Source: Roseospira goensis (lineage in GTDB: Bacteria > Pseudomonadota > Alphaproteobacteria > Rhodospirillales > Rhodospirillaceae). From it: a stretch of 61,082 nucleotides of DNA. The notes beneath the pieces were generated by a model. That model ran no database searches. It was not told the origin of the DNA and saw only the letters and a program-made list of their open reading frames with translations. The stretch is taken from the NCBI RefSeq assembly GCF_014197795.1, contig NZ_JACIGI010000022.1, forward strand, positions 1 through 61,082, written 5' to 3'. A program made the translations under genes and the position numbers. Positions 31,721 to 50,626 of this stretch are shown here, in pieces (the stretch's first letter is position 1; the number at the start of each line of letters is the position of its first letter).

Positions 31721-31818
31721 CCGATCGCGACACCCCGGACTCGCGGCGCGATTTCGGGGTGCCGCCATACTCGGCTGAGACTCATACATGGAGCGCGGCG
31801 TGATCGCGATCCGCGCTA
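31721..31818 (-). repeat. Dispersed stop-codon-linked palindromic repeat, copy A
   Basis: Read on the minus strand it begins at the bamE stop codon with TAGCGCGGATCGCGATCA, continues through CATGTATGAG and CAGCCG, and ends in the stem GGCACCCCG...CGGGGTGTC around GAAATC/CGCGAGT core sequence, then ATCGG. Copies B and C share the same order of blocks. Confidence 0.8.
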
Positions 31819-32310
31819 GAGTCCGTCGATGGTCTGGTTGAGGCCGCCTTCGCCGCCCTCGAACCGCCCCAGGTTGCCGAGAAGCTGTTCCAGAACGCTG
31901 AGTTCGTTGCCGAGCGTCGGTGTCTCGCGATCCACCACCTCGACCTCGCGCCCGTCGTCCAGGGTCAACTCGCGCACGTCGCTGACGCGGCCGTCGTCGC
32001 CGAACGAAATCGCGATCACGCGCCGCTCCAGCTCCTCGCGCTCGTAGATCGCGAACTGCTGCGTCTGGGCGCTGATGTAGTACCAGGTCTCGTCGTCGAA
32101 GGTCGCCGTCGTGGACGGCGTGCCCAGCAGCGCGGCCACCTCGGCGCGGCTTTGCTCGCCGGCCTGGATCTGGCTCAGCCGCTCCCGCGTCGGCTCGTTG
32201 CCGCGCGCGCTGATCTCCGGGGCACAGGCCCCGACGACGACGGCCAGGGCGAGGGCGGCGGCCACCCCGCGCGCCGGGCCGACTCGACGCGATCCCAGTC
32301 CGTTGAGCAT
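31816..32310 (-). CDS. bamE: Outer-membrane protein assembly factor BamE (SmpA/OmlA) lipoprotein
   Basis: A lipoprotein of the Bam complex that supports beta-barrel insertion. The signal LAVVVGAC gives a lipobox with C29 as the acylated residue. The SmpA/OmlA fold is seen in RLSQIQAGEQSRAEVAALLGTPSTTATFDDETWYYISAQTQ. 164 aa from the ATG at 32310; the upstream open frame is Arg-rich and excluded. The C-terminal 50 residues are more acidic and longer than in E. coli, as is common in alphaproteobacteria. Its TAG stop is the first triplet of repeat copy A. Confidence 0.88.
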   Translation of the reverse strand: MLNGLGSRRVGPARGVAAALALAVVVGACAPEISARGNEPTRERLSQIQAGEQSRAEVAALLGTPSTTATFDDETWYYISAQTQQFAIYEREELERRVIAISFGDDGRVSDVRELTLDDGREVEVVDRETPTLGNELSVLEQLLGNLGRFEGGEGGLNQTIDGL

Positions 32311-32349
32311 GGCTGACCCTCCCGAAAACCCCGCGGATCGCCGGTCTCT

Positions 32350-32378
32350 TTGCACCGGCCGGTACAGGCGCCTATATA
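32350..32378 (+). promoter_or_regulatory. Sigma-70-type promoter of the cytochrome bc1 chaperone gene
   Basis: TTGCAC (32350-32355), 17-bp spacer, TATATA (32373-32378), about 87 bp before the start at 32465, in the divergent gap with bamE. Confidence 0.6.
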
Positions 32379-32464
32379 GCACGCGGGCGGTGCGGAGAAA
32401 CAGCGCCGCCGGCGCCGTCGCGCCGCGATCGATCGACAGTGAAGTGAATGGATAACCTGACGTC

Positions 32465-33124
32465 ATGTTCGACACCCTGTTCGGCGCCCGTGCCCGGGCG
32501 CGCGCCCGTGACCGCGCCCAAGCCCGGGCCGTGGTGGAAAGCCTCTACGGCGAGGTGGTGCGGCGGGCGCGCCAGCCGGCGCTGTATCTGACCTGGGGCG
32601 TGCCGGACACCCTGGACGGCCGCTACGACATGCTGGTGCTGCACGCCTATGTGCTGTTCCGGCGCCTGGGAGCGCTGCGTCGCGAGGAGGCGGCGCGGAC
32701 CGGGCGGGACGAGGCGGAGACCGAGGCCGGCGGGCTGTCGCAGGCCGTGTTCGATCACATGCTGCGCGACCTGGACACGAACCTGCGTGAGGCGGGGGTG
32801 AGCGACATGCGCATCGGCTCGCGCATGAAGAAGCTGACCAAGGGCTTTTACGGGCGCGTCGGCGGCTATGACACGGCCCTTGCGGCCGGCGACGAGGCCG
32901 CGCTGCGCGATGCGCTGGACCGCAACGTTTTCCAGAAGAGCACCGCGCCGCCGGAGGGTCTGGCCGCGCTGGCGGATTATGTGCATGCCCTGGTGGCGGC
33001 GTCCGAGACCTGGACGTGGGACGATCTGTCGCATGGCGTGATCCGGTTCCCGGAGCTGCCGGCGGCGGCCGCGCCGTCCGCGCCGGCCGCCCGGAACGCG
33101 GGGACGGCGGAGACCCCGGCATGA
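32465..33124 (+). CDS. Ubiquinol-cytochrome c chaperone family protein (CBP3-like), 219 aa
   Basis: Relative of mitochondrial Cbp3/UQCC1, which helps cytochrome b assembly in complex III. Family features are the opening FDTLFG followed by a basic helix, ALYLTWGVPDTLDGRYDMLVLHAYVLFRRL, and SDMRIGSRMKKLTKGFYGRVGGYD. The last 25 residues are Ala/Pro-rich. The stop overlaps the next start (ATGA). The pairing with a DUF177 gene and rpmF is a common alphaproteobacterial order. Confidence 0.88.
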   Translation: MFDTLFGARARARARDRAQARAVVESLYGEVVRRARQPALYLTWGVPDTLDGRYDMLVLHAYVLFRRLGALRREEAARTGRDEAETEAGGLSQAVFDHMLRDLDTNLREAGVSDMRIGSRMKKLTKGFYGRVGGYDTALAAGDEAALRDALDRNVFQKSTAPPEGLAALADYVHALVAASETWTWDDLSHGVIRFPELPAAAAPSAPAARNAGTAETPA

Positions 33125-33690
33125 CGGCGGGGCCGGTGGCGGAATTCGCGCGTCCCGTCGTGGCGGACCAGATCACGCCCGAGGGCCGCGTCCTCACTCT
33201 GGACGCCACCGAGGCCGAGCGGGCGGCCCTGGCCCAGCGGTTCGGGCTGGACGCGTTGGACCGGCTGGTGGCCGAACTGACGGTGCGCCGGCTGGGCGCT
33301 CGGCGCGGGGCAACGCGGCTGGAGGTAGCCGGCCGGCTGGAGGCCGACGTGGGTCAGACCTGCGTGGTGACGCTGGCGCCGCTGCATCGCCGGATCGAGG
33401 AAGCCGTGCGTCAGCGCTACTCCGACGAGGACGACGCGACGCCCGGGGCGGTGGACATTGATGCCGGGGAGGGCGATCTGGAAGAGCCCCCCGGGCCGAT
33501 CGTCGGCGGGGTCATTGACGTGGGGGAACTGCTGGCGGAAACGCTGGGCCTGGCGATCGACCCGCATCCGCGGGCGCCGGATGCCACCTTCGAGGCGACG
33601 GCCGTCCCGCCCGAGCCGATCCCGGAAACGCCGGCCCCGAAGCCGTTCGCGGCGCTGGCGGCTCTGAAGCGCGGCGCCGACGAGTCCTGA
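33121..33690 (+). CDS. DUF177 (YceD-like) protein, 189 aa
   Basis: The family stands before rpmF in most bacteria and is linked to 23S rRNA processing or accumulation in E. coli and plants. The typical core is LEVAGRLEADVGQTCVVTLAPLHRRIEEAVRQRY followed by an acidic stretch and GGVIDVGELLAETLGLAIDPHPRAP. The start at 33121 is set by the ATGA overlap. The normally conserved two C-terminal cysteines of some relatives are absent; C near residue 80 remains. Confidence 0.87.
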   Translation: MTAGPVAEFARPVVADQITPEGRVLTLDATEAERAALAQRFGLDALDRLVAELTVRRLGARRGATRLEVAGRLEADVGQTCVVTLAPLHRRIEEAVRQRYSDEDDATPGAVDIDAGEGDLEEPPGPIVGGVIDVGELLAETLGLAIDPHPRAPDATFEATAVPPEPIPETPAPKPFAALAALKRGADES

Positions 33691-34074
33691 CGGTCCGCTG
33701 GCCCGCGTCCGGCCGGGCCGGATCGGGCGCTGGTCCTCCACGGGGTGACGCGGCCCGGCCCGCCCCCTATCTAAGAGGAGGGCGCGGGGGCCGCCGGCCA
33801 GCGCCGCTCGGCCGACGCGGAAAAAGCGACGTGGAAAAAGCATCGGCGGGCCGGATCCCGTCGCTTGCGGGCGCATCGGAATTCCGCTACACAAACGCGC
33901 TCGCGCCTGGGGCCGCCGCGACGGCCCGCGACCCGCGGCGAATTCCACTCGTGGCGAGTCCCCGATGCGCGTCGCCGCGGCGACGCGCCGTGCCGGGGCT
34001 ACCGCCTGTCGGTGGCCGTGCGGCCGGCGGCTTCCATCCCAGGCCCTCGCAGCCCAGAAACGTGGACAAGTCCA
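33691..34074. other. Intergenic region upstream of rpmF
   Basis: No gene is seen. It holds a likely promoter at 33865-33893 for the rpmF-plsX-fabH run, and GC-rich sequence with no clear terminator after the DUF177 gene. Confidence 0.5.
33865..33893 (+). promoter_or_regulatory. Putative sigma-70 promoter of rpmF-plsX-fabH
   Basis: TTGCGG (33865-33870), 17-bp spacer, TACACA (33888-33893). The leader to rpmF would be about 175 nt, long enough for leader control. Confidence 0.4.
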
Positions 34075-34257
34075 ATGGCGGTTCCCAAGAGTAAAGTCTC
34101 CAAGTCCCGGCGCAACATGCGCCGCGCTCATCACGCCCTCACCAACGGCCCGTACAACGAGTGCGCGAACTGCGGTGAGCTGAAGCGACCGCATCATGTG
34201 TGCGCGCACTGCGGCCACTACGATGGCCGCGAGGTCGTCAACCCCGAAGCGGCTTGA
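34075..34257 (+). CDS. rpmF: 50S ribosomal protein L32
   Basis: A 60-residue basic ribosomal protein with [20 protein letters not shown] at the N-terminus. It is the zinc-ribbon form: C30, C33, C43 and C46 (CANC...CAHC). It precedes plsX as in most bacteria, linking ribosome and lipid synthesis. The start at 34075 is the family start. Confidence 0.97.
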
Positions 34258-34326
34258 TAGAGTGATGGCAGGGGGGCCGTCCGATCCGGGCGGCAACACA
34301 CCCGACACCGGTGAAATGGGGTCCTC

Positions 34327-35388
34327 GTGAGCGCACGCCTCACCCTTTCCCTTGATGCCATGGGCGGCGACCGCGCCCCCGAAATGGTGCTGAAAGGGAT
34401 TCAGATCGCCCGCAAGCGGCATCCACAGGCGCACTTCCTGCTCTTCGGGGACGAGGCCGCGCTGGGGCCGAGTCTGAAACGCGAGCGCGACCTGGCGGCG
34501 GTCTGCGAGGTGCGCCACACCGACGGCGTGGTTGGCAACGACGAGAAGCCATCCCAGGCGTTGCGCCGGGGCCGTGACAGCAGCCTCTGGCAGGCAATCC
34601 AGGCCGTCAAGAGCGGCGAGGCGGCCGGCGTGGTGTCGGCCGGCAACACCGGCGCCTTCATGGCCATGGCGAAGCTGGCGCTGCGGACGCTGCCGGGGAT
34701 CGACCGCCCCGCGATTGCGGCCCTGATGCCGACCTTGCGGGGCGACTGCGTGATGCTTGACCTCGGCGCCAATGCCGAGTGCGATGCCGACAACCTGGTG
34801 CAGTTCGCCATCATGGGCGAAGTGTTCGGGCGGACCGTCCTGGGCCTGAGCAACCCCACCATCGGGTTGCTCAACATCGGCACCGAGGATCAGAAGGGCA
34901 CGGACACGCTCCGCCAGGCGTCGGCGCTCCTGCGCGACAGCACCCTGCCCATCCGGTTCCAGGGGTTCGTCGAGGGCGACGACATCGGCAAGGGCACGGT
35001 CGATATCGTGGTGACCGACGGCTTCACCGGCAATGTGGCCCTGAAGGCCATCGAGGGGACATCAAAGCTGTATACCTCGTTCATTCGCGGGGCCTTCGAG
35101 AGTTCGATCCTGAGTCGGATCGGCTACTTTCTGGCACGGCCGTCCCTGAACAAGGTGCGGGTGCGCACCGATCCGCGCCGCTACAACGGCGCCATGTTCC
35201 TGGGCCTTAACGGCATCGCCGTGAAGTCCCATGGCGGCACCGACGCGCTCGGCTTTGCCAACGCCGTGGGGGTGGCGGTCGATCTGGTGACTCACGGCTT
35301 CAACGACACCATCAAGGGCGAGTTCATGAAGGTCCAGCGGGCCTCGGGGCTCGACCTGAAGGGACTTGAACGGGCGGCGAACGGCTGA
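34327..35388 (+). CDS. plsX: Phosphate acyltransferase PlsX
   Basis: It makes acyl-phosphate from acyl-ACP, the first step of phospholipid synthesis in bacteria using PlsY. The family start [46 protein letters not shown] and [15 protein letters not shown] are all present. 353 aa with a GTG start at 34327. It overlaps fabH as TGATG, so the two are translationally coupled. Confidence 0.96.
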
Positions 35389-36362
35389 TGGTCACGCGGT
35401 CCGTGCTCGTCGGGACCGGGTCCTATCTGCCGGCCCGGGTGGTCACCAATGACGACCTGTCGCATCGGGTCGACACCAGCGACGCGTGGATCCGTGACCG
35501 GTCGGGCATCGCCGAGCGGCGGATCGCCGCCGAGGGCGAGGTGACGTCGGATCTGGCGATCGCCGCGGCCCGCCACGCGCTGGCCGGGACGGACGTCGCG
35601 CCGGACGCGCTCGACCTGATCGTCGTCGCCACCGCGACCCCCGACCACACCTTTCCGGCCACCGCCACCAAGGTGCAGACGGCGCTGGGCGCCCATGGCT
35701 GCATCGCCTTCGACATTCAGGCGGTGTGCACCGGCTTCATCTATGCGCTGGCCACGGCGGATGCGTTCATCCGGGCCGGTCAGGTCCGGACCGCGCTGGT
35801 CATCGGCGCCGAGACCTTCTCCCGCATTCTCGACTGGGAGGACCGCGCGACCTGTGTCCTGTTCGGCGATGGCGCCGGGGCGGTGGTGCTGCGTGCGGGG
35901 GAGGGGCGCGGCGACGCCGGCGACCAGGGCATCCTGTCCTCGCATCTGCATGCCGACGGGCGCCAGCACGACCTTCTCTATGTCGATGGGGGGCCGTCCT
36001 CGACCCAGACCACCGGGCACCTGCGCATGCAGGGGCGCGAGGTGTTTCGCCACGCGGTCGTGAACATGGCGCAGGTGGTGGACGAGGCCCTGGCGGCCAA
36101 TGGCCTGACGGTGGATGATATCGACTGGCTGGTGCCGCACCAGGCCAACCAGCGCATCCTGGACAGTACCGCCCGCAAGATCGGACTGCCGGCCGAGCGG
36201 GTGGTCTCGACGGTGGCCCGCCACGCCAACACGTCGGCCGCGTCGGTCCCGCTGGCGTTGGACGAGGCGGTGCGGGACGGCCGCATCCGGCCCGGTCATC
36301 TGGTCCTGCTCGAAGGCATGGGCGGTGGCTTCACCTGGGGCTCCGTGCTCGTGCGGGTGTAG
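35388..36362 (+). CDS. fabH: 3-oxoacyl-ACP synthase III
   Basis: It starts fatty-acid chains by condensing acetyl-CoA with malonyl-ACP. The catalytic triad is visible: C114 in [11 protein letters not shown]251 in VPHQANQRI and N281 in [13 protein letters not shown]. The C-terminal [13 protein letters not shown] is typical. 324 aa, normal. Coupled to plsX. Confidence 0.97.
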
Positions 36363-36419
36363 GGGGCCGCGGAACCGGCTTCCATACCGGTTTAATCTCT
36401 TCCCCACAAATCCCTGATA

Positions 36420-36448
36420 TTGACGGCTTTCCGGCGAGCCGGTACTCT
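36420..36448 (+). promoter_or_regulatory. Putative sigma-70 promoter of ihfA
   Basis: TTGACG (36420-36425), 17-bp spacer, TACTCT (36443-36448), about 190 bp before ihfA. Confidence 0.5.
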
Positions 36449-36639
36449 TTCCGTCCATGCGGGCTTTTCGGGGTCCGCCCGGCGCGCGGCGGCCTGTGTC
36501 TCGGCCCCGTGGCGCCACAGGGTGCGATCTCCGGCCGTGGACGAGCGCGGTCGCGGGTGACGCGATCGGGGGTGCGGCGGCGCCGCGGGAGCCCCGGAGT
36601 GGACGGGATGTCTCGGACGAACACGAGGGGTCGGAGGTC

Positions 36640-36957
36640 ATGAGCGGGCAAACCATCACGCGGTCGCAGCTCAGCGAAGCGGTCTATCAGGAGGTTGGGC
36701 TGTCACGGAACGAGTCGGCGGACCTGCTCGAATCCGTTTTGGAGGAGATGTCCCAGGCCCTGGCGCGCGGCGAGACGGTGAAGATCTCCTCGTTCGGCAG
36801 CTTCTCGGTGCGCGAGAAGGGCCAGCGCATCGGCCGCAACCCCAAGACCGGCGAGGAAGTGCCCATCATGCCCCGCAAGGTCCTGGTGTTCCGGCCCTCG
36901 CAACTGCTGAAGAACCGCATCAACAAGGCCGCGTCCGACGGCTCCGGGAGCGCCTGA
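36640..36957 (+). CDS. ihfA: Integration host factor subunit alpha
   Basis: A DNA-bending HU/IHF-fold protein, 105 aa. It has [51 protein letters not shown] with the minor-groove proline P69, and a VVFR-like [10 protein letters not shown]. The start at 36640 follows GGAGG. The alpha assignment follows the gene order fabH-ihfA-merR common in alphaproteobacteria. The protein is relevant here because an IHF-like site lies in the nifE promoter region. Confidence 0.94.
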
Positions 36958-37631: not shown

Positions 37632-37709
37632 TCGCGCCCGGGCCCATGCGTGGCATCGGAGTCTCGCCCCGGGCCCGGCGCCGGGGCGGTCTCCATAACC
37701 TCCCTCCGA

Positions 37710-38588: not shown

Positions 38589-38711
38589 GGGCAGCGCGAA
38601 GCTCCGGCATGGGGGGTCGACGGTGGCGCGCACCATACCATGGCCTCCCGGGCCAGCAAGGCGGTGCCCTTCGGCAGCGCCCGCCCGGCATGCCGTTTTG
38701 TGCGGCTGCGT

Positions 38712-38739
38712 TTGCAACGGGGGCGCGGATGGGTATAGT
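38712..38739 (+). promoter_or_regulatory. Sigma-70-type promoter of yajC-secDF
   Basis: TTGCAA (38712-38717), 16-bp spacer, TATAGT (38734-38739), 83 bp before yajC. Confidence 0.6.
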
Positions 38740-38822
38740 CCGGGCTCCTACGACAGGGCGGCCGGGCCGACGCTCTCATGGCCCGCCGCTTCGGCGACTC
38801 ACCGCATGCAAGGAGCGCGCGG

Positions 38823-41050: not shown

Positions 41051-41062
41051 GGTCCCGATCCC

Positions 41063-42181
41063 ATGCGTCCGCTGATCAACATCGTTCCGGTCGACACCAG
41101 CATCGACTTCATGAAGCGCCGCATCCAGGCGCTGATCCTGTCGGGCATCCTGATGGTGGCGGCCGTCGTCTCCCTGGGCGTCCAGCAGCTCAACTTCGGC
41201 ATTGATTTCGCTGGTGGCATCCTGGTCGAGGCCCGCATGCCCGGCGAGCCGGACATGGCCGACCTGCGCGACCGCCTCAACGGGCTGGGGCTGGGGGCGG
41301 TCTCGCTGACCCACATCGGGGAAGATGCGCGCGACGTCATGATCCGCGTGCAGCAGCCGGACGACACCACGGAGGAGCAGGAGAACGCCGCCCTGAACGC
41401 CATCCAGGGCGTGCTCGGCGACGGAGTGGATTACCGCCGGGTCGAACTGGTCGGCCCCAAGGTCGGCGGGGAGCTGATCGAGGCCGGAATCTGGGCGGTG
41501 TCGCTGTCGATCCTGGCCATCGTGGTCTACATCTGGTTCCGCTTCGAATGGCAGTTCGCGGTCGGGGCCATGGTGGCCCTGATCCACGACGTGCTCATCA
41601 CGCTCGGCCTGTTCTCGGTCCTGCGTCTGGAGTTCGACCTGACCACCGTGGCGGCGCTGCTGACCCTGGCCGGCTACTCCATCAACGACACCGTGGTGGT
41701 CTACGACCGGGTGCGGGAGAAGCTGCGCCGGTACAAGAAGCTGGCGCTGGTGGACCTGCTGAATCTGGCACTGAACCGGACGCTGTCACGCACCATCCTG
41801 ACGTCGGTGACGACCTTGATGGCCGTGCTGTCGCTGTTGTTCCTGGGCGGCGACGTGCTGCGCAACTTCAGCGCCGCGCTGGCCTTCGGCATCGTCATCG
41901 GCACCTATTCGACCATCTATGTGGCGGTGCCGATCCTGGTCTATTTCGACCTCCGCCGCGAGGCCATCGTGGGCGAGGAGGAGGCCGCCGCCGAGGGCGA
42001 GACGGACGCGTCGGCTCCCGACGAGACGGGAGCGGGCGCGGCGGAAGGGTTGCCGACGGCGGCCCCCGAGACCGCACCGGCCGGCGCGCCGGCCGCCCCG
42101 CCCGCGTCCCCGGCGCAGGGCCGCGGCGGCGGGGCCAAGGCGCGCGGCGGCAAGAAGAAGGGGCGCGGCAAGCGGCGCTAG
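41063..42181 (+). CDS. secF: Protein translocase subunit SecF
   Basis: SecD partner, 372 aa. Recognisable are NFGIDFAGGILVEAR, the helix motif YSINDTVVVYDRVREKLR and ALSLLFLGGDVLRNFSAALAFGIVIGTYSTIYVAVPI. After residue 305 comes a 65-residue cytoplasmic tail, first acidic/Ala-Pro-rich, then ending in a dense Lys/Arg/Gly run (KARGGKKKGRGKRR). The TAG stop is the first triplet of repeat copy B. Confidence 0.96.
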   Translation: MRPLINIVPVDTSIDFMKRRIQALILSGILMVAAVVSLGVQQLNFGIDFAGGILVEARMPGEPDMADLRDRLNGLGLGAVSLTHIGEDARDVMIRVQQPDDTTEEQENAALNAIQGVLGDGVDYRRVELVGPKVGGELIEAGIWAVSLSILAIVVYIWFRFEWQFAVGAMVALIHDVLITLGLFSVLRLEFDLTTVAALLTLAGYSINDTVVVYDRVREKLRRYKKLALVDLLNLALNRTLSRTILTSVTTLMAVLSLLFLGGDVLRNFSAALAFGIVIGTYSTIYVAVPILVYFDLRREAIVGEEEAAAEGETDASAPDETGAGAAEGLPTAAPETAPAGAPAAPPASPAQGRGGGAKARGGKKKGRGKRR

Positions 42182-42317
42182 CGCGGATCGCGATCAATCT
42201 GAACCACGACGTGGTACGGATTGATCGCTTGATTCCGCGATCATTGTATGAGTTGCAGCCGATGATCGCGACACACCGAAATCCCGCCGCGAGTCCGGTG
42301 TGTCGCAATCGGCTGTC
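42179..42317 (+). repeat. Dispersed stop-codon-linked palindromic repeat, copy B
   Basis: It begins at the secF stop with TAGCGCGGATCGCGATCA and carries an extra nested hairpin (GATCAATC...GATTGATC). Then come TGTATGAGT and CAGCCGATGATC, and finally the stem GACACACCG...CGGTGTGTC with core GAAATC/CGCGAGTC, ending CAATCGG. This is the longest copy. Confidence 0.8.
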
Positions 42318-42451
42318 AGGGGCCGGCCGGCCCAGAGTGGCACCGGGGCGGGGTTGATCGCGTCCGCCCCGGCCCCACGTCTGAACGCGGACACGTCTGA
42401 ACGCGGACAGGTCAGGACGCGTCAACTCAGGACCCAGGCAGGCGGCCGCTC

Positions 42452-42814
42452 ATGGACATTACCCCCCTTGTTCCCGCCAACCGCCAACTCGTGCAGGCGT
42501 ATGGTGACGGCGCATTCCGGATCAGCGGCGTCCAGCACGCCGGCTCGGTCATCGTATTTCCGGATCGTGTGCTGCCCTGGTCCGGCGAGATCAGCGCCGA
42601 TGGCCTCGACGCCGTGGTGGGTGCGGCGGACGCGGTCGAGATCCTGATCCTCGGCTGCGGACCTGCGATGACGCTGGTGCCGTCGACGCTGCGCCAGACC
42701 CTGCGCGCCCACGGCATCGCGGTCGAGCCGATGGACACCGGGGCCGGCTGCCGCACCTACAACGTCCTGCTGGCCGAGGAGCGGCGCGTGGCGGCGGCCC
42801 TGGTCGCGGTGTGA
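42452..42814 (+). CDS. Mth938-like domain protein, 120 aa
   Basis: Small protein of the Mth938/NDUFAF3 family. Core features are QAYGDGAFRISGVQHAGSVIVFPDRVLPW, EILILGCGPAM and GIAVEPMDTGAGCRTYNVLLAEERRVAAALVAV. Mitochondrial NDUFAF3 assists complex I assembly; the bacterial role is inferred. The nearby squalene/phytoene synthase-family protein resembles NDUFAF6, another complex I factor, and both follow secDF as in many alphaproteobacteria. Confidence 0.88.
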   Translation: MDITPLVPANRQLVQAYGDGAFRISGVQHAGSVIVFPDRVLPWSGEISADGLDAVVGAADAVEILILGCGPAMTLVPSTLRQTLRAHGIAVEPMDTGAGCRTYNVLLAEERRVAAALVAV

Positions 42815-42861
42815 TCGCGCACGCATCGCCGCCCGTGGTCGCGACCGCGCCTTACCAACGA

Positions 42862-42890
42862 AAAACGGGGCTCCGCGGCGGAGCCCCGTT
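42862..42890. terminator. Bidirectional terminator between the Mth938 gene and sodB
   Basis: ACGGGGCTCCG-CGG-CGGAGCCCCGT with five A on the left, giving a T5 tract for minus-strand (sodB) transcripts. Confidence 0.85.
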
Positions 42891-42917
42891 CGTCATCAAA
42901 GCGGTGTGGCCGGCGGA

Positions 42918-43517
42918 TCAGGCGGCCTTCGCCAGGTTCTCGTTGACGAAGTCCCAGTTCACCAGGTGGTCCAGGAACGTGGTCAGGAAGTCCGGGCGCC
43001 GGTTCTGGAAGTCCAGGTAATAGGCGTGCTCCCAGACGTCGCAGGTCAGGAGCGCGGTCTGGCCGTGCACCATCGGGTTCTCGGCGTTGGGGGTCTTGGT
43101 CACCTTGAGGGTGCCGCCGTCCAGCACCAGCCAGGCCCAGCCGGATCCGAACTGGGTCGCGCCGGCGGCCTTGAACTCCTCCTTGAACTTTTCGAAGGAG
43201 CCGAAGGCTTCGTCGATCTTGCCCGCGATCGCGCCGGTGGGGGCGCCGCCGCCGCCGGGCCTCATGCCGTGCCAGAAGAAGGTGTGGTTCCAGACCTGGG
43301 CGCTGTTGTTGAACACGCCGGTATTCTTGTCCGTCCAGGACTTCATGATGACCTCGTCCAGACCCATGTCCGCCATGGGCGTGTCCTTGGTCAGGTTGTT
43401 CAGGTTGGTGACGTAGGTCTGATGGTGCTTGCCGTGGTGGAACTCCAGCGTCTGCGCCGACATATGCGGCTCCAGCGCGGACGTGTCGTAGGGCAGGGGG
43501 GGAAGCTCGAACGCCAT
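42918..43517 (-). CDS. sodB: Superoxide dismutase, iron type
   Basis: It removes superoxide in the cytoplasm. Metal ligands H27, H78, D160 and H164 are present (LEFHHGKHH, QVWNHTFFWHG, CDVWEHAYYLD). Q74 in SAQVWNH and the GSGWAWL motif suit the Fe or cambialistic class. 199 aa, normal. An 18-bp tandem duplication lies in its leader (43525-43560). The start at 43517 is the family start. Confidence 0.95.
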   Translation of the reverse strand: MAFELPPLPYDTSALEPHMSAQTLEFHHGKHHQTYVTNLNNLTKDTPMADMGLDEVIMKSWTDKNTGVFNNSAQVWNHTFFWHGMRPGGGGAPTGAIAGKIDEAFGSFEKFKEEFKAAGATQFGSGWAWLVLDGGTLKVTKTPNAENPMVHGQTALLTCDVWEHAYYLDFQNRRPDFLTTFLDHLVNWDFVNENLAKAA

Positions 43518-43524
43518 TCTCAAC

Positions 43525-43560
43525 CTCGTCTGACTGTGCTGTCTCGTCTGACTGTGCTGT
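43525..43560. repeat. 18-bp perfect tandem duplication in the sodB leader
   Basis: CTCGTCTGACTGTGCTGT occurs at 43525-43542 and 43543-43560, 8-43 bp upstream of the sodB start on the minus strand, where it would affect the 5' leader or an operator. Confidence 0.9.
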
Positions 43561-43768
43561 GGGCGGCCCCGACGGGTCGCCCCATCGGGGAGGCGGGCCG
43601 GTCCCGGTCCGCGGGTGCTGCGAAAGTGCGAAACGAACGTGGGATGCACCGAACACCAGCGTACATAGGGCGCGGTCGCGGGCGTGTGAAGTGTGGAACC
43701 GTTCAAAGCGGGCGCGGGAGGCCGGGCGCATCCGGCGCCCGGCCCGTGGCTGACGGGAGGACGGGGCC

Positions 43769-44629
43769 ATGACCCGGGGCGCCGAGACGTGTGCCGATCT
43801 GGTGCGGCGGCAGGACCGAGACCGCTATCTGCTCGCCATGCTGGCCCCGCCGGAGCGCCGGCCGGCGCTGCTGGCGCTGTACGCCATGGCCACCGAGGCG
43901 GCGCGGGTGCCGGGGCTGGTCAGCGAGCCCATGCTCGGGGTGATCCGGCTTCAGTACTGGCGCGATCTGGTCACCGCCGACGATCCGGCGGCGGCGGCAC
44001 GGGGCAATCCGGTGGCCGAGGCGCTGGCGGCGACGGTCCTGGTGGATGTGGACACGGCGGGGCGGGCCCTGCTGGTCGAACACCTTGAGGGGTGGGGGGC
44101 GGATCTGGCCCCGGAGGCGCCGCCCGACGAGGCCGCGGCGCGGCGACAGGCGGCGGCGACGGCCGGTGCCCTGGCCGAGGCCTCGGCCCGGCTGCTGGGG
44201 GCGCGGGAGGCCGACAGCCTCACGGTCGCCCGCCACGTGGGCACCGCCTGGGGCCTGGTCGCGGTGGCCCGGGCCACGCCGGGGCTGCTGGCGCACGGGC
44301 GGTTGCGGCTGCCGCTCGATGCCCTGCGCGCAGCCGGTCGCGACGCCCGGACCGTGCTGGCCGGCGCGGATGCCGAGAGGATCGGGATCCGCGCCGGCGT
44401 GGCGGCCCTGGTGGCGCTGGCCGACACCGAACTCGCGGCCGCGACGGCGGCGGTGCGGGGTGGGCCCGTGGAGCGGGCCGCCCGCCCGGCGCTGCGGCAG
44501 GCGGTGCAGGCCCGCCGGATCCTGGCCGCGCTGCGCCGCGCCGGCTGCGACCCGTTCGATGGGCGCTTGGCCCGGGTGCCGCCGCCTCTGACCGCGTTGG
44601 TCTGGGACCGCCTGCGGTGGGGGGCCTGA
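43769..44629 (+). CDS. Squalene/phytoene synthase-family protein (NDUFAF6-like), 286 aa
   Basis: An isoprenoid-synthase-like fold: YLLAMLAPPERRPALLALYAMATEAARVPGLVSEPMLGVIRLQYWRD at residues 20-66 and GTAWGLVAVARATPGLLAHGRLRLP near 155-180. The DxxxD motifs of true squalene or phytoene synthases are not evident, so it probably is not an active synthase. It resembles mitochondrial NDUFAF6, a complex I assembly factor. The Mth938 gene nearby points the same way. Confidence 0.8.
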   Translation: MTRGAETCADLVRRQDRDRYLLAMLAPPERRPALLALYAMATEAARVPGLVSEPMLGVIRLQYWRDLVTADDPAAAARGNPVAEALAATVLVDVDTAGRALLVEHLEGWGADLAPEAPPDEAAARRQAAATAGALAEASARLLGAREADSLTVARHVGTAWGLVAVARATPGLLAHGRLRLPLDALRAAGRDARTVLAGADAERIGIRAGVAALVALADTELAAATAAVRGGPVERAARPALRQAVQARRILAALRRAGCDPFDGRLARVPPPLTALVWDRLRWGA

Positions 44630-45178
44630 TCGGTCCGACCGGCCCCCGTGAGGACGCGGACGGTGGGACGGTGAAGGTGACAGGGTCACGACACGGTGAT
44701 GACAGGGTGTTGACGGGGTGTCGACAGGACAAGGACATGGACGGCGGCGGTTGGAGCGTGGCTGTGATTGTGCTGTGACTTGCCGCGCCAAGCCCCTGAC
44801 CGGGCGAATTATTTCGGTGTGGCGGGGTGTATTCTGACCGGCCCCGGCGACGCGTCGACCGGAAGCCGGCCCCGCGTGCCGCGTGCAGTGACCCCAGGAG
44901 TTCAGCCGCGATCTCATACATTCGTTATAACATCATATGCCTTCAGGAGGTATCGGTCCGGCTTCGGACCGCCATGCCGTGTCACGGGCGAAGCAGTCAA
45001 CCGGCTGTCCTGTATCGGCGACGGGGCTGTCTTGCAGGGCCGAGGGTTGCCATCCCTCGGGACGGTCTGTAGACTGAAGAAATTCAGACAGAGTCATCAA
45101 ACAAAACGACCGGCAAGCAGAGCGACCGGAACCGGATCGAACGGGCAGACCGGGCGATGGGTCGTGACGGAGGATCGG
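44630..45178. other. Intergenic region with degenerate GACAGGGTGT-type repeats
   Basis: No gene longer than 60 codons is convincing. From 44660 to 44750 short direct repeats (GACGGTG, GACAGGGT, GACGGGGTGTCGACAGG) recur imperfectly. A lower-GC stretch at 44920-44950 (CATTCGTTATAACATCATATG) could hold a promoter for the small ORF at 45179. Confidence 0.45.
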
Positions 45179-45397
45179 ATGAAACGTGACACATGCTCCC
45201 CGCTTGAGCATCTGGCCGGTGTCGTCGCGGTGGTGGGGCTGAGCATGATCCTGCACGCCGGCTTGCACACCGGAGCCACCTACCTGGCGGCGCCGGCGTC
45301 GATCCCGGGCTTGGAGGACGGCCCCGGACCGCACATTGCGGCGCCGGATTCCGCGGTTTGGGGACGGGCGGTGCTCCGCCTCAATGGCATGCCCTGA
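45179..45397 (+). CDS. Small hypothetical protein upstream of nif, 72 aa
   Basis: ATG at 45179 follows GGAGG by 5-6 bases. The peptide begins MKRDTCSPLEHLAGVV and has one likely membrane or signal segment (residues 12-32, AGVVAVVGLSMILHAGLH), then a Gly/Pro-rich segment. A clear terminator follows at 45483. No family is recognised. The good ribosome site, hydrophobic helix and terminator argue for a real gene; nearness to nif suggests, but does not show, a link. Confidence 0.5.
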   Translation: MKRDTCSPLEHLAGVVAVVGLSMILHAGLHTGATYLAAPASIPGLEDGPGPHIAAPDSAVWGRAVLRLNGMP

Positions 45398-45429
45398 CCC
45401 GCGACCCGCGACCCGCGACCCGCGACCTG
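45396..45429. repeat. 7-bp tandem repeat GACCCGC
   Basis: Four perfect GACCCGC units, then degenerate GACCTGT, directly after the small ORF stop. Confidence 0.85.
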
Positions 45430-45482
45430 TGACAACGACAGAGGCCAGGCCGGGTGACGGCGCGGCCCTTCATCGGACCAGA

Positions 45483-45509
45483 CCCGGCGGCCGGACACCG
45501 CCGGGTTTT
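45483..45509 (+). terminator. Terminator upstream of the nif operon
   Basis: CCCGGCGG-CCGGACA-CCGCCGGG followed by TTTT; it ends transcription from the small ORF before the nifE promoter. Confidence 0.8.
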
Positions 45510-45557
45510 GTGTATCGGGGCCGTCGGCGCCGGGCGTCGCGGGTGCGACAGTCGGCA

Positions 45558-45573
45558 TGTCGGATCTCCGACA
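45558..45573 (+). promoter_or_regulatory. NifA upstream activator sequence
   Basis: TGT-CGGATCTCCG-ACA matches the NifA consensus TGT-N10-ACA exactly. It is centred about 60 bp before the -24 element, the right distance for looping to sigma-54 polymerase. Confidence 0.85.
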
Positions 45574-45594
45574 CGGTGTGGTGCACACCCGGCC

Positions 45595-45607
45595 CAACAC
45601 ATTGAAA
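45595..45607 (-). promoter_or_regulatory. IHF-like site between UAS and nifE promoter
   Basis: On the minus strand TTTCAATGTGTTG fits WATCAA-N4-TTR with one mismatch. Its place between the UAS and the promoter is where IHF normally bends DNA in nif promoters. Confidence 0.45.
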
Positions 45608-45625
45608 TCGCGGCACAGAGGGAGT

Positions 45626-45641
45626 TGGCACCGGTCTTGCT
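45626..45641 (+). promoter_or_regulatory. Sigma-54 (-24/-12) promoter of nifENX
   Basis: TGGCAC-CGGTC-TTGCT is a perfect match to the sigma-54 consensus, 52 bp before the nifE start. Confidence 0.92.
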
Positions 45642-45692
45642 GCGGCTTCGGGCGTCGCCCCGTGGGGGGTGTTCGCCTTCAGGAGGTCGCGC

Positions 45693-47132
45693 ATGCTCAC
45701 CGATCGTCTGGCCCCGGTGTTCGACGAACCGGCCTGCGCCACCAACCGCGCCAAGACCGACGCGGACCGCAAGGCCGGCTGCCGCACCAAGGGGCCGGCG
45801 CCCGGGGCGGCGGCGGGTGGCTGCGCCTTCGACGGTGCCAAGATCGCGCTCCAGCCCATTGTCGATGCTGCCCATATCGTGCATGGCCCGATCGCCTGCG
45901 AGGGCAACAACTGGGACAACCGGCACGCCGCCTCGTCCGGACCCGACCTGTACCGCCGGGGCCTGACCACCGACCTCGGCGAGATGGACGTCATCCAGGG
46001 CGGTGAGAAAAAGCTGTGGCGGGCCATCCGCGAGGCGGTGGAGCGGTTTGATCCGCCGGCCGTGTTCGTCTACCAGACCTGCGTTCCCGCCCTGATCGGT
46101 GACGACCTGCATGCGGTCTGCCAGGCGGCGGCGGAGCGGTTCGCCCGGCCGGTCATCCCGGTCGAGACGCCGGGCTTCGTCGGCAGCAAGAACCTGGGCA
46201 ACCGGCTGGCGGGGCAGACCCTGGTCGACCATGTCATCGGCACCGTCGAGCCGGAGACGACCACCCCGACCGACATTGCCCTGATCGCCGAGTACAACAT
46301 CCAGGGCGAGCTGTGGCAGCTTACCCCGCTGTTCGAGCGCCTGGGGATCCGCCTGCTGTCCTGCATCACCGGCGATGCCCGCTTCCGCTCGGTGGCGCAG
46401 GCGCATCGGGCGCGGGCGGCGATGGTGGTGTGCTCCCAGGCCATGCTGAACGTCGGCCGGGGCCTGCGGGAGCGCTGGGGCATTCCGTTCTTCGAGGGCT
46501 CGTTCCACGGCGTGCGCGCGACGTCAGAGGCGTTGCGCGGCTTCGCCCGCCTGCTGGTCGAACGCGGCGCGCCGGCCGATCTGATCGACCGCACCGAAAC
46601 CCTGATCGCGGAGGAGGAGGCGGCCGTCTGGCGCCGCTTCGCGCCGCTTCGCGACCGTCTCGCCGGCAAGCGGGTGCTGCTCTACACCGGCGGCCACAAG
46701 AGTTGGTCCATCGTCTCGACGCTCCAGGACATGGGCATGACCGTCATCGGCACCTCGGTGCGCAAGGCCACCGAGGACGACGCTGCCCGCGCCCGGGCGT
46801 TGCTCGGTGAGGACGGCCAGCTCTTCGGCGCCATCCCGAATGCCGAGATGTACCGCATGCTGCGCGACGGCGAGGCCGACATCATGCTGTCCGGCGGCCG
46901 CAGCCAGTTCGTGGCGCTGAAGGCGCGCCGGCCGTGGCTGGACACCAACCAGGAGCGCCACCATGCCTACGCCGGCTACGCGGGCTTCCTGGTGCTGGCC
47001 GAGCGCATCGCCCTGACCCTGGATGCGCCGGTGTGGCCGCTGGTCAACGGCCCGGCGCCCTGGGATGACGGCTGGGACCCCGACTGGGATGACGGCTGGG
47101 ATGGGACGGCGACCGGGGAGGGATTGGCATGA
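45693..47132 (+). CDS. nifE: Nitrogenase FeMo-cofactor scaffold protein NifE
   Basis: With NifN it forms the scaffold on which the NifB product is matured to FeMo-co. NifD-like motifs are CAFDGAKIALQPIVDAAHIVHGPIACEGNNWDNR, VFVYQTCVPALIGDDL, and GFVGSKNLGNRLAG. The start at 45693 follows AGGAGGTC. 479 aa. The C-terminus carries an unusual Trp/Asp/Gly-rich tail built from a 17-bp direct repeat (47061-47077, 47085-47101). nifN overlaps by ATGA. Confidence 0.96.
   Translation: MLTDRLAPVFDEPACATNRAKTDADRKAGCRTKGPAPGAAAGGCAFDGAKIALQPIVDAAHIVHGPIACEGNNWDNRHAASSGPDLYRRGLTTDLGEMDVIQGGEKKLWRAIREAVERFDPPAVFVYQTCVPALIGDDLHAVCQAAAERFARPVIPVETPGFVGSKNLGNRLAGQTLVDHVIGTVEPETTTPTDIALIAEYNIQGELWQLTPLFERLGIRLLSCITGDARFRSVAQAHRARAAMVVCSQAMLNVGRGLRERWGIPFFEGSFHGVRATSEALRGFARLLVERGAPADLIDRTETLIAEEEAAVWRRFAPLRDRLAGKRVLLYTGGHKSWSIVSTLQDMGMTVIGTSVRKATEDDAARARALLGEDGQLFGAIPNAEMYRMLRDGEADIMLSGGRSQFVALKARRPWLDTNQERHHAYAGYAGFLVLAERIALTLDAPVWPLVNGPAPWDDGWDPDWDDGWDGTATGEGLA
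47061..47101 (+). repeat. Direct repeat coding the NifE tail
   Basis: TGGGATGACGGCTGGGA occurs at 47061-47077 and 47085-47101, a 24-bp period that keeps frame and duplicates the residues WDDGWD. Confidence 0.85.
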
Positions 47133-48541
47133 CCACGATGGAGACCCGTCGGACCAAAGCCCTCACCATCGACCCGCTGAAGGTGTCGCCGCCGCTGGGT
47201 GCTGCGCTGGCGCTGCTGGGGGTGGAGCGCGGCCTGCCGCTGCTGCACGGCGCCCAGGGGTGCACGGCGTTCGCCCTGGTGCTGCTGGTGCGGCACTTCC
47301 GCGAGGCCATCCCGTTGCAGACCACGGCCCTGGGGGAGATCGAGACCATCCTGGGCGGGGCCGACAACCTGGAGGCCGCCATCCGCACCATTTGCAGCAA
47401 GTCCAAACCGGCGGTGCTGGGGGTCTGTCCGACCGCCCTGACCGATACCCGAAGCGAGGATCTGGCGGCCGACCTCAAGGGCATCGCCACCCGACTGGGG
47501 CCGGAGCTGGGCGAGACCCTGCTGGTGCACGCGCCCGCGCCCGATTTCGTCGGCGGCCTTCAGGAGGGCTGGGCGGCGGCGGTGCAGGGCATCGTCGATG
47601 CGGCGGCGCGCCCGCGCCCGCGGCGGTCCGGGCATGTGGTCGTGCTGGCGGGCGCCCATCTGACGGTCGGCGACCTCGACGCGCTGCGCGATCTGATCGA
47701 AGCGTTTGGTCTCACCTGCACCCTGCTGCCCGACCTGTCGGATGCGCTCGACGGCCATATCCCCGACACCTGGAGCCCGGTCAGCCTGGGTGGCACGCCG
47801 CGCGCCGCGCTGGACGACCTGGGCGCGGCCGAAGCCGTGCTGGCCGTGGGGGCGCACATGGCGCCGGCGGCGGCGCTGCTGGAGGCCCGCACCGGCGTGC
47901 CGGCGACGGTGATGGACACCGCGACCGGGCTGCGCGCCGCCGACCGGCTGGTGGCGTGGCTGTCGCGCCTGGCCGGCCGCCGCGCCCCGGCCGGGGTGCG
48001 GCGCGACCGCTCCCGGCTGCTCGATGCCCTGATCGACGCCCATTTCGCCGCCGTCGGCCAGCGGGTGGCGGTGGCGGCCGAACCGGATCTGCTGCGCGCC
48101 CTGGTGACCCTGGTCACGGATCTGGGCTGTCGGGTGCCGGTGGCGGTGACCACCACCCGGGCGCCGGGGCTGGATGGACTGCCGGTGGAGCGCCTGCTGG
48201 TCGGCGACCTGGACGACCTGGAGACCGCCGCCCACGCGGCCGGCGGGGTCGATCTGGTGATCGGGCCGTCGCCCGCCCAAAGGGCCGCCCAGGCCCTGGG
48301 CGCGCCGCTCTTGCGCGCCGGGTTTCCGCAGCTCGACCGCGTCGGCAGCCAGCACGTCGTGTCCGTCGGCTACCGCGGCAGCCGCGACCTGGCCTTTGCC
48401 GTCGCCAACGCCCTCACCGACGCCGTCCACCGCGAGGGTCCCGCCCATGCTGATCCCCGTGCCCCCGTGCCCCTTTGCCAGGGCCAGCCGTCCGCGCAGG
48501 AGAGTGACCATGAGGCCGGCTCGCCGTCTGCGGCTCGTTGA
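47129..48541 (+). CDS. nifN: Nitrogenase FeMo-cofactor scaffold protein NifN
   Basis: NifK-like partner of NifE. Diagnostic are IDPLKVSPPLGAALALLGVERGLPLLHGAQGCTAFALVLLVRHFREAIPLQTTALGEIETILGGADNLEAAIRTI. Cys in HGAQGC is the expected cluster ligand. 470 aa. Its last 32 bases overlap nifX, whose frame starts inside nifN, so the final ten residues may be variable. Confidence 0.95.
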   Translation: MTTMETRRTKALTIDPLKVSPPLGAALALLGVERGLPLLHGAQGCTAFALVLLVRHFREAIPLQTTALGEIETILGGADNLEAAIRTICSKSKPAVLGVCPTALTDTRSEDLAADLKGIATRLGPELGETLLVHAPAPDFVGGLQEGWAAAVQGIVDAAARPRPRRSGHVVVLAGAHLTVGDLDALRDLIEAFGLTCTLLPDLSDALDGHIPDTWSPVSLGGTPRAALDDLGAAEAVLAVGAHMAPAAALLEARTGVPATVMDTATGLRAADRLVAWLSRLAGRRAPAGVRRDRSRLLDALIDAHFAAVGQRVAVAAEPDLLRALVTLVTDLGCRVPVAVTTTRAPGLDGLPVERLLVGDLDDLETAAHAAGGVDLVIGPSPAQRAAQALGAPLLRAGFPQLDRVGSQHVVSVGYRGSRDLAFAVANALTDAVHREGPAHADPRAPVPLCQGQPSAQESDHEAGSPSAAR

Positions 48542-49028
48542 CACCGGCGGCGGCGCGCACGCCGCGCCCCCACCCCCGACCGAGGAGGTCCCGACCGTGA
48601 AAGTCGCCCTCGCCACCCAGGACATGTTCGCCGTGAACGCCCACTTCGCCGGGGCGCGGACCCTGGCCATCTACGACGTCACCCCGGCCGGCTGGTCGCT
48701 GGTCGAGGCGGTGCAGTTCGACGACGCCAGCGCCGAGGACGGCGCCGGGCACGACGATGATCGGGTGGCACCACGCGTCGCCGCGCTGGACGGCTGCACG
48801 CTGCTGTTCGTGCGGGCCATCGGCGGGCCGGCCGCGGCGCGGGTCGTGGGCGCGCGCGTGCATCCCATCAAGCTGCCCGACGACGCCCCCCTGGAGCAGG
48901 TCTTGCAGCGGGTGCGGACCATGCTGAACGGCACCCCGCCGCCGTGGCTGCGCAAGGCCATGGGGGGCGAGGGCGGGCGGCGCCCGGCCTTCCTCGATGA
49001 GGACGCCGAGACCGGCGCGGAGGCCTGA
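48510..49028 (+). CDS. nifX: Nitrogen fixation protein NifX
   Basis: It binds NifB-co and carries cofactor intermediates between scaffold proteins. After a basic start (MRPARRLRLVDTGGG), the NifX/NafY fold begins with VKVALATQDMFAVNAHFAGARTLAIYDV and ends with QVLQRVRTMLNGTPPPWLRKAM. The ATG at 48510 follows AGGAGA and lies inside nifN; a longer frame exists upstream but is proline-rich. 172 aa, slightly longer than usual because of the tail. The gene order nifE-N-X is standard. Confidence 0.92.
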   Translation: MRPARRLRLVDTGGGAHAAPPPPTEEVPTVKVALATQDMFAVNAHFAGARTLAIYDVTPAGWSLVEAVQFDDASAEDGAGHDDDRVAPRVAALDGCTLLFVRAIGGPAAARVVGARVHPIKLPDDAPLEQVLQRVRTMLNGTPPPWLRKAMGGEGGRRPAFLDEDAETGAEA

Positions 49029-49031
49029 GCG

Positions 49032-49523
49032 ATGACGGCGCTTGCCCGCAAGATGGCCGCCCGCACTCTGGCGCCCGAACCGGCGTGGCCCGCCGACCCG
49101 GTGTTTCTGCCCGAACTGGCGGCGCTGATCCGGGCCGGCGACTGCTGCGGCCTGTGGGAGGGCAAGAGTGACGCCCGCCTGCTCGGTGGTTACGTGGTCA
49201 CGCGCGACCAGCGGCGCGCCATTCCCATCCTCGGTGAGCCGGACCCGCGCGTGCTGCGCCGCCTGCACACGTACTACCAGGCCGTCGGCACCGCCATCGG
49301 GCGCCATACCGGCCATGTGGCGACGCCGCTGGTGGACCTCTCGGACGAGGGCTTCGGCCGCGTCGTGCTGATCGCCGGGCGGTTGGTGGCCGTGGCCCGG
49401 CCGCTGCGCGACGTACACCGCTTCGGCTTCGACGATCTGGCGGCCCTGGATGCCGCCGGGGCCGCCCTGGTCGAGGAGGGGGCGGCCATGATCGCCGGCC
49501 ACCCCGCCCTGGTGGCGGCGTGA
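49032..49523 (+). CDS. NifX-associated protein (DUF269), 163 aa
   Basis: This family lies directly after nifX in most diazotrophs. Family features are FLPELAALIRAGDCCGLWEGKSDARLL and VTRDQRRAIPILGEPDPRVLRRLHTYYQAVGTAI. Its biochemical job is not established; a role in cofactor handling is inferred from its constant position. Starts 3 bp after nifX. Confidence 0.93.
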   Translation: MTALARKMAARTLAPEPAWPADPVFLPELAALIRAGDCCGLWEGKSDARLLGGYVVTRDQRRAIPILGEPDPRVLRRLHTYYQAVGTAIGRHTGHVATPLVDLSDEGFGRVVLIAGRLVAVARPLRDVHRFGFDDLAALDAAGAALVEEGAAMIAGHPALVAA

Positions 49524-49552
49524 TCCCAACCCTGACTCGAAAGGAGACCATC

Positions 49553-49855
49553 ATGTCGGTCCGGACCTTCGCGACCCGCGACGGGCGCCCCTGGGTGCCG
49601 TCCTACCTGGAGGCCATCGACCCCGACGTCTGTATCGGTTGCGGTCGCTGCGTGAAGGTCTGTGCCCGCGATGTCATCGCGCTGCGCGGTGTGACCGAGG
49701 ACGGGGACCTGTGCGATCCCTTCGACGACGACGAGGAGATCGAGCGCAAGATCTCGGTTCTGGTGGCCGCCGGCGACTGTGTCGGCTGCGGGTCCTGCGC
49801 CACGGTGTGCGGGACCGGCGCCCAGCACCACGCGCCGGTCGAGGAGGCGGCGTAG
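49553..49855 (+). CDS. fdxB: Nif-specific ferredoxin III
   Basis: A 100-aa bacterial 2[4Fe-4S] ferredoxin. The cluster motifs are CIGCGRCVKVC and CVGCGSCATVC, separated by a longer insert (GVTEDGDLCDPFDDDEEIERK) typical of FdxB. It donates electrons within nitrogen fixation or cofactor synthesis. The start MSVRTFATRDGRPWVP at 49553 follows AAGGAGA; the frame is open a little further upstream. Confidence 0.93.
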   Translation: MSVRTFATRDGRPWVPSYLEAIDPDVCIGCGRCVKVCARDVIALRGVTEDGDLCDPFDDDEEIERKISVLVAAGDCVGCGSCATVCGTGAQHHAPVEEAA

Positions 49856-49888
49856 CCGGCAAGGACCCAGCGACCCGGGGAGGGGGCG

Positions 49889-50536
49889 ATGGCCGAGGAC
49901 CTGTACACCCATCTGATGGACGGCCCGACGGCGGAGTCTGGTCCGGACCCGTTCGACCGCCACGTGCTGGCGGCGGCGATCGCGTCCGGCTGCCTGCCGC
50001 CGCACCGGGCGTTGACGGAGTCCCTGGCGCTGTCGCCCTGTGATCTGGCGCGCCTGATCGCCACCGTGTTCCCGCATGCCGGCGCCCTGCTGGACTGGCA
50101 GCCGCCCTGGCCCGGACCGCGCGACGACGAGCCCGAGGAGCCGGCCCTGCGCGCCCTGCTGTACGACAACCGCACGCCCGGCGGCGATCCCGACTTGGCG
50201 CGCTGGCTGGCGCGCATCATCGCCCGCCGGTCTTTGGGCGACCGCCATCTCTGGGAGGACCTGGGGCTCGGCGCGCGGGCCGACCTGAGCCGCCTCATGG
50301 CCCGCCATTTCGGGCCGCTGTCGGAGCGGAATCAAGGCATGCGCTGGAAGAAGTTCTTCTACCGCAGCCTGTGCGAGCAGGAGGGGGTCCTGCTCTGCAA
50401 GGCTCCCAACTGCGAGGTCTGCGAGGACTACGCGCTCTGCTTCGCGCCGGAGGAGGCGATCGCCGGAGCCGGCGTCCTGTTCGGGCCGGCCCGCACCCCG
50501 GCCGGCGGCGCTCTGGCGGGGGATGGCGCGCGATAG
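49889..50536 (+). CDS. nifQ: Molybdenum-processing protein NifQ
   Basis: NifQ delivers molybdenum for FeMo-co as a Mo-Fe-S cluster. The diagnostic C-x4-C-x2-C-x5-C is seen in CKAPNCEVCEDYALC, preceded by RWKKFFYRSLCEQEG. 215 aa. It ends the nif operon; its TAG stop is the first triplet of repeat copy C, which may serve as the operon's transcript end. Confidence 0.94.
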   Translation: MAEDLYTHLMDGPTAESGPDPFDRHVLAAAIASGCLPPHRALTESLALSPCDLARLIATVFPHAGALLDWQPPWPGPRDDEPEEPALRALLYDNRTPGGDPDLARWLARIIARRSLGDRHLWEDLGLGARADLSRLMARHFGPLSERNQGMRWKKFFYRSLCEQEGVLLCKAPNCEVCEDYALCFAPEEAIAGAGVLFGPARTPAGGALAGDGAR

Positions 50537-50626
50537 CGGAGATCGCGATCACTGGATGAGTCGCGGCCTATGATTGTGGCACGCCGAGATCGCGTCGCGA
50601 GTCCGGTTTGTCGCAATCGGCTGTAG
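50534..50626 (+). repeat. Dispersed stop-codon-linked palindromic repeat, copy C
   Basis: It starts at the nifQ stop: TAGCGGAGATCGCGATCA, then ATGAGT and CGGCC, then GGCACGCCGAGATCGCGTC and GCGAGTCCGGTTTGTCGCAA, ending TCGG. The most diverged copy, with a weakened stem. Confidence 0.75.

Follow-up and report, generated by a model that had tools for sequence, protein, structure and literature searches.

Short two-hairpin repeats at gene stops in Roseospira goensis: a probable family of IS630-type miniature inverted-repeat elements

The DNA analyzed here (the window) is a stretch of 61,082 nucleotides, positions 1 to 61,082 of contig NZ_JACIGI010000022.1 of the photosynthetic bacterium Roseospira goensis, and it carries four copies of a short palindromic repeat, three of which start at the stop codon of a gene. 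Copy A (31716..31818, minus strand, 103 nt) shares its first triplet with the TAG stop of bamE (31816..32475, minus strand; Pfam BamE, E 4.5e-18; codon score 61.6), copy B (42179..42317, plus strand, 139 nt) with that of secF (41063..42181, plus strand; Pfam SecD_SecF_C, E 2.8e-68; codon score 197.7), and copy C (50534..50625, plus strand, 92 nt) with that of nifQ (49889..50536, plus strand; Pfam NifQ, E 2.7e-47; codon score 64.8). An earlier note on this DNA had described the three copies and their place at these stops, and it was right on both counts apart from small corrections of the coordinates. From sequence comparison we propose that the repeats are quite probably a family of non-autonomous mobile elements (miniature inverted-repeat transposable elements, MITEs) of the IS630/Tc1-mariner type, with an end that restores the stop codon into which it inserts.

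Copies A, B and C all belong to class a/alpha as defined below. Copy B is complete, with a left hairpin at about 42182-42239 followed by a linker and a right hairpin at about 42255-42316 (plus strand), and it has TA at its left end and TC at its right end. Copies A and C, with TA at both ends, are internally deleted, with little of the left hairpin remaining, and what had been taken for an extra hairpin in copy B therefore belongs to the complete form. Stem pairs differ jointly between A and B (CACCCCG/CGGGGTG versus CACACCG/CGGTGTG), a paired change that had been noticed before and is confirmed. In the covariance model described below, copy C begins 8 nt before the TAG, at 50526. The fourth copy (8744..8884, minus strand, 141 nt) is of class b/beta and of full two-hairpin form (fold z -9.6), with TA at its left end, CA at its right end and no scored stop codon at either. 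The closest named match to SecF is from Roseospira visakhapatnamensis (75%).

The element is about 139 bp long and non-coding, and it occupies at least 106 distinct places in its own genome (G000, an 81-contig draft with a completeness of 98.64%), counting the fetched loci and the window. Of 255 model matches at E <= 0.001 the best 150 were aligned, and the places are what is left after removal of overlaps with a better match; the covariance model was built from 22 full copies, all of which are themselves among the 106. A raw model search of the genome, in which 150 of 2612 candidates were scored and only part of the matches fetched, gave at least 149 matches at E <= 0.01, many of them the two strands of one palindrome. 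From a total of 108 own-genome loci nine were excluded, namely eight core matches that by eye have no element around them and the transposase locus L048 treated below. The core CGCGAGTCCGG occurs 55 times genome-wide versus 11 for its reversed control, and the end pattern TASMGCVGAWYG 218 times versus 6. Within the window, GCGNNGATCGCGATCA with at most two mismatches is found seven times (mean 2.2 in 100 shuffles, none reaching 7), and the core with one mismatch shows no excess over chance in the window alone (9 versus a mean of 7.7). Twenty loci were read from 100 of the 218 TASMGCVGAWYG places; some are damaged copies, and the remainder, including a facing pair on C7, are read as chance matches. 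Two orphan right ends were also read, one of which, L107, lies outside the 106: only 24 nt with the two element ends remain of it, again at the stop of a gene (codon score 156). A scan of the whole window against Rfam at the gathering score left the element unmatched and returned a tRNA as its sole match; the b/beta copy L066 has no match in the plasmid and phage collections, and the a/alpha copy L037 has none in the plasmid collection, the only one its search covered.

A full copy is built from two hairpins of about 60 nt each, one left and one right, which a linker of about 15 nt connects, and it is roughly mirror-symmetric because the inner arm of each hairpin bears a bulge. Six recurrent half-modules (left a, b and c; right alpha, beta and gamma) are combined in several pairings, with a/alpha in 29 of the 106 places, b/alpha in 21, c/gamma in 17, b/beta in 14, an unclassed left half with alpha in 14, c/alpha in 3 and eight single cases that include c/beta. 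Mean pairwise identity is 0.93 for c/gamma (maximum 0.993), 0.91 for b/alpha, 0.87 for b/beta and 0.75 for a/alpha, so that c/gamma looks to be the youngest class and a/alpha the oldest. After the TA, left ends begin with G (TA-GCGC or TA-GAGC); a TA-GAGC start is also found in b, beta and gamma ends and in the majority of the elements of the relative G025. Four full copies fold with z from -6.8 to -9.6, and the shortened copies A and C with -2.1 and -1.5. In the 22-copy alignment 95.2% of cells are paired, compared with 27-40% in slid structures, and 45 two-sided changes are seen against 14 in shuffles. Strong hairpins with compensatory changes are what would be expected of a functional 3'-end element, whose hairpins end or stabilise transcripts and which is kept at stops because it is useful; most of the two-sided changes, however, separate the classes from one another. 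The pairing data show that the hairpins have been kept, but not that an RNA acts.

Several features of an IS630/Tc1-mariner MITE are seen here: the element is short, repeated and devoid of a transposase gene, it carries a 2-bp TA duplication, and it has a CTAG-like site preference. TA stands at both ends in 59 of the 106 places. In three copies (L062, L065 and L004) AT stands at both ends, each time at a CATG site, so that the end dinucleotide derives from the target; L021 has AT at one end and CT at the other. Of the 59 copies that end in TA on both sides, 39 have a reconstructed YTAR site, versus 121 of 1182 background TA dinucleotides (Fisher p 8e-23), and so do 15 of 26 copies outside stops. 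The bases before the TA (n=59) are C31, T18, A9 and G1, and those after it A24, G24, T10 and C1, a near mirror image such as a double-stranded target would give. At L081, L079 and L096 a c/gamma element is nested in an alpha arm, each time at one and the same TA position, two in one orientation and one in the other, and removal of the nested insert together with one TA restores the usual arm CAGCCGAT-TA-TYGCG. These comparisons show the outermost dinucleotide at each end behaving like a 2-bp duplicated target, usually TA and three times AT; the evidence for duplication consists of the end dinucleotides, the nested insertions and the bamE gene of congeners.

At the three nested sites (L081, 901-1174; L079 and L096, about 880-1160) the TA lies in the bulge of the alpha hairpin, which, being hit at three places in the genome, is a possible insertion hotspot within the palindrome.

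Two inverted hairpins with inner-arm bulges also resemble REP dimers, and in GTAG REPs the terminus of the repeat often gives an adjoining open reading frame its TAG stop (PMC3733652, in the part consulted). The genome has one gene for a transposase of the required kind, a RAYT-like Y1 enzyme at L048 (G000:C6:13766-17104), so that repeats of REP/REPIN type moved by RAYT (an HUH tyrosine transposase) come into consideration. That gene, however, is flanked by palindromes of its own (GTAGGTTGGGGTGAGC...) that are unrelated to the element, its repeat being GTAGGTTGGGG..., and none of the searched element motifs is present in the 3.3-kb locus. The copies with AT at both ends and the three nested TA duplications argue for target duplication, which HUH transposition is not known to produce, and the near mirror-image bases around the TA suggest a double-stranded target. 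REP/REPIN repeats further differ from our element in their GTAG tag foot, where the element has a target-derived TA. With another cognate repeat at the RAYT gene and a 2-bp target duplication at the element, we rejected mobilisation by RAYT, and we regard it as highly improbable.

For the relation to stop codons we used a codon-usage score of our own, trained on the window and applied at a threshold of 25, which is not a published gene finder. In 43 of the 106 places one of the element ends forms a gene's in-frame stop (35 left ends and 9 right ends, with one place counted in both), and 63 copies lie away from any scored stop. The earlier note held that a lack of further copies, or of any link with stop codons, would speak against its observation; both points were checked, and the observation stood. 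A control over the three reading frames bears the association out as in frame: for the left end, gene-like open frames enter at 38, 2 and 0 of the 106 places, and for the right end at 11, 2 and 0, counts that are not limited to intact stop triplets. Right ends of alpha type (GTA) serve as a stop in none of 66 cases, and they cannot rebuild one because GTA reads TAC on the other strand; right ends of CTA type (TAG on the other strand) do so in 9 of 27. Stops hold 6-7% of the TA dinucleotides that lie in non-coding DNA or stops (window and own loci). Measured against this share, 43 of 106 would be a large excess, but the use of TA targets is itself non-random (YTAR). Among YTAR sites confined to gene tails, meaning stops or the 150 nt that follow a gene, stops account for 17 of 45, versus 33 of 59 copies (p = 0.08). 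Most of the stop association is thus explained by a YTAR target together with tolerance of gene tails, which leaves space for a modest additional effect.

The 43 places at stops, together with the position of 39 of the 61 copies with genes called on both sides between convergent genes (and of one between divergent genes), would also suit a functional 3'-end element. Against such a role, which we consider improbable, stand the weak excess (p = 0.08) beyond target and gene-tail tolerance, the position of copies A and C at stops with most of the left hairpin lost, the 24-nt residue of bare ends at L107 that is still at a gene stop, and the absence of intrinsic terminators (a GC-rich hairpin with a terminator-like T run; 0 found) from 41900-50900, the span scanned, which holds copies B and C. 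The role in transcript ending or stability that the earlier note had offered as one reading is not borne out by these data, nor by the 63 copies off stops. As a separate observation, at L078 (5788-5924) a single c/gamma copy lies between convergent genes and forms the TAG stop of both.

It had also been claimed that the element supplies the stop codon of its host gene. In 25 of the 27 left-stop copies that can be reconstructed, the right TA and the base that follows it would have formed a TAA or TAG before insertion. For the remaining two, the element-free frame would extend by one codon (L052) or by 97 codons (L020); since these frames would run on without it, the element does supply the stop there, and the claim stands for these two copies. 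At bamE, the stop of four of four congeners falls on the same codon, as TAG, TAG, TAA and TAA, and the element model has no match in the 27 congener stretches searched, those of bamE included. The element thus mostly reuses existing stops, and the claim is for the most part mistaken.

We propose that an IS630-type transposase acting in trans would have cut and pasted the elements. In a genome so rich in GC, YTAR would seldom occur, and stops of the form TAA or TAG that follow a C or T would be among the harmless places that offer it. Insertion in the left-end orientation would rebuild TAG, since G comes after the left TA; right ends reading CTA would rebuild TAG in the opposite orientation, which the alpha right end could not. 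Selection would then keep the copies at stop codons in the stop-preserving orientation. On this account stop codons would often be hit because the TA-centred target is rare in GC-rich DNA and the element end restores the stop, and a benefit to the host would be unnecessary to account for the pattern. The suggestion of a target preference of some mobiliser, offered in the earlier note as an alternative, has thereby gained substance from the 2-bp duplication, the YTAR target and the IS630-like ends. A family specialised to colonise gene 3' ends, by ends that rebuild stops and by the swapping of hairpin halves, with some copies maybe kept since a hairpin at a stop shields the transcript or trims it, is an unlikely variant. 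The puzzling occurrence of repeats at stops would in this way find a mechanism in a target preference and the base with which the element begins, and not in a regulatory signal, and the same logic could explain TAG stops given by other palindromic repeats.

The ends of some IS630 insertion sequences of relatives may hint at the mobiliser, though the search pattern favoured ends of the element's kind. In 5 of 30 such loci, inverted ends starting TA-GAGC lie 1048-1056 bp apart around the IS630 domain (PF13358), and these five (L260, L261, L262, L272 and L286) sit at CTAG, TTAG, CTAG, TTAA and TTAG, which is YTAR in 5/5. A sixth locus, L285, passes the end test at the edge of the locus, and 1 of 44 controls passes. 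The full module sequence is absent from all 30 loci. With moderate certainty the mobiliser of the element would be of IS630 type.

Several observations weigh against our assignment. PF13358 has no match in the element's own draft genome of 81 contigs and none in the element-rich genomes G025 and G055, and c/gamma copies look recent (maximum identity 0.993) in spite of this. The domain occurs in 26 of the 61 genomes, 8 of the 14 that bear the element and 18 of the 47 others, a weak link. The agreement in GAGC is partly built in, because the end test admitted only starts of the pattern TA-[GC][AC]GC; an open end test found a pair with at least 12 of 17 matches in 10 of the 30 IS630 loci, of which four have GAGC ends and six do not, and L277, in the congener G006, has an end pair of 15 of 17 with a different start and may be an IS630 with other ends. 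An intact TA is lacking at one or both ends in 47 of the 106 places, which we read as decay. Finally, secF stops with TGA in 5/5 congeners (those in which a tail was found) and nifQ in 6/6, and a native TAA or TAG at these two genes is only deduced. The same applies to a former TAA or TAG at L056, whose gene ends with TGA in five of six congeners and TAA in one, and at L078, where congeners of the left gene have TAA, TAG, TGA, TGA and TAG and those of the right gene TGA in 3/3 readable cases. As congener stops vary at secF, nifQ, L056 and L078, bamE is the only clean comparison for a native stop.

The assignment to IS630-type MITEs is provisional because no autonomous IS630 was found in the same genome, although an old or orphaned MITE can do without such a partner. 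The missing PF13358 in the own genome, G025 and G055 would also fit a MITE that belongs to some other YTAR-targeting DDE family, for example of IS5 type, or to an undescribed transposase, and some IS5-type elements use YTAR targets. The IS5-type domain PF13586, however, also has no match in the own genome (the search did not extend to other IS5 domains), the target duplication of IS5 is 4 bp and that of the element 2 bp, and five IS630 loci of relatives share TA-GAGC ends and YTAR sites with the element. Another DDE family is therefore doubtful as the source, and an IS630-type transposase remains the reading we prefer.

Among known systems, ISY100, an insertion sequence of IS630 type, inserts nearly always at TA, which it duplicates, and rarely at another dinucleotide (PMC2170065, in the part consulted). 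The element agrees with IS630 and ISY100 in its TA duplication, its CTAG-like preference and the TA-GAGC ends at YTAR in the five loci of relatives, and differs in being gene-free, no autonomous partner having been found. A CTAG preference of IS630 was reportedly described by Tenzen and Ohtsubo in 1991. RUP of Streptococcus pneumoniae is a short non-coding MITE of about a hundred copies with a TA target, ascribed to the action of IS630-Spn1 in trans (PMC2229807, in part). It is like the element in each of these respects, including the ascription to an IS630 transposase; the consulted part of the source, compared by description only, says that RUP ends resemble those of the IS630 in the same genome, whereas the genome studied here shows no IS630, and it mentions neither interchangeable hairpin halves nor sites at stop codons. 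YPAL of Yersinia is a mobile palindromic repeat with target duplications of 3 to 26 bp and termini without a TA motif (PMC2229807, in part). The element shares with YPAL its palindromic nature, mobility and target duplications, and differs from it in its TA termini and its 2-bp duplication. Correia/NEMIS repeats of Neisseria are TA-type short repeats with inverted ends (PMC2229807, in part). Compared by description only, the element is like them in being of TA type and in its inverted ends. A two-hairpin form is not known for Correia/NEMIS repeats. TA-duplicating MITEs are thus already known, as are TAG stops from palindromic repeats (GTAG REPs; PMC3733652, in part). In the open-licence literature of PubMed Central we found neither this family, nor its interchangeable halves, nor an explanation by target and end base, and no paper that joins Rhodospirillaceae with miniature inverted-repeat elements; the listed papers that mention Roseospira together with a repeat deal, to judge by their titles, with different topics.

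The element model, run with Infernal under stricter filters, matches 14 of 61 genomes, namely 6 of the 7 from the genus (the own genome included) and 8 of the 54 other relatives. Copies read in G003, G025, G050 and G055 have the same anatomy with other modules, mostly start with TAG and include several stop-codon cases; no stop count is given for these relatives because the codon score derives from the own genome. For annotation, mobile DNA would partly shape where genes end in Roseospira and in certain other Rhodospirillales. Interchangeable halves and recent-looking copies, in a genome in which no IS630 gene was found, define a search for the mobiliser.

Three observations from relatives may be added. 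At the loci L239-L256 of G025 (different genus, same family), where no PF13358 was found, the two-hairpin form is built from other modules, TAGAGCACGTCGCGTTTATCC and TAGAGCCGAGAGCGAAAAATC. In the congener G002, a c/gamma copy (G002:C29:25413-25548, L320) is 95% identical to a copy of the own genome; gene matches beside this site are at 71%, and elsewhere at 74-85% or lower, and a recent transfer of this copy is possible. Downstream of bamE in G004, L222 is a different, single TA-flanked palindrome (TAGAGTGTTTTGCGTG...CACGCAAAACACTCTA) that the model does not match and that perhaps represents another family with the same TA-GAG start.

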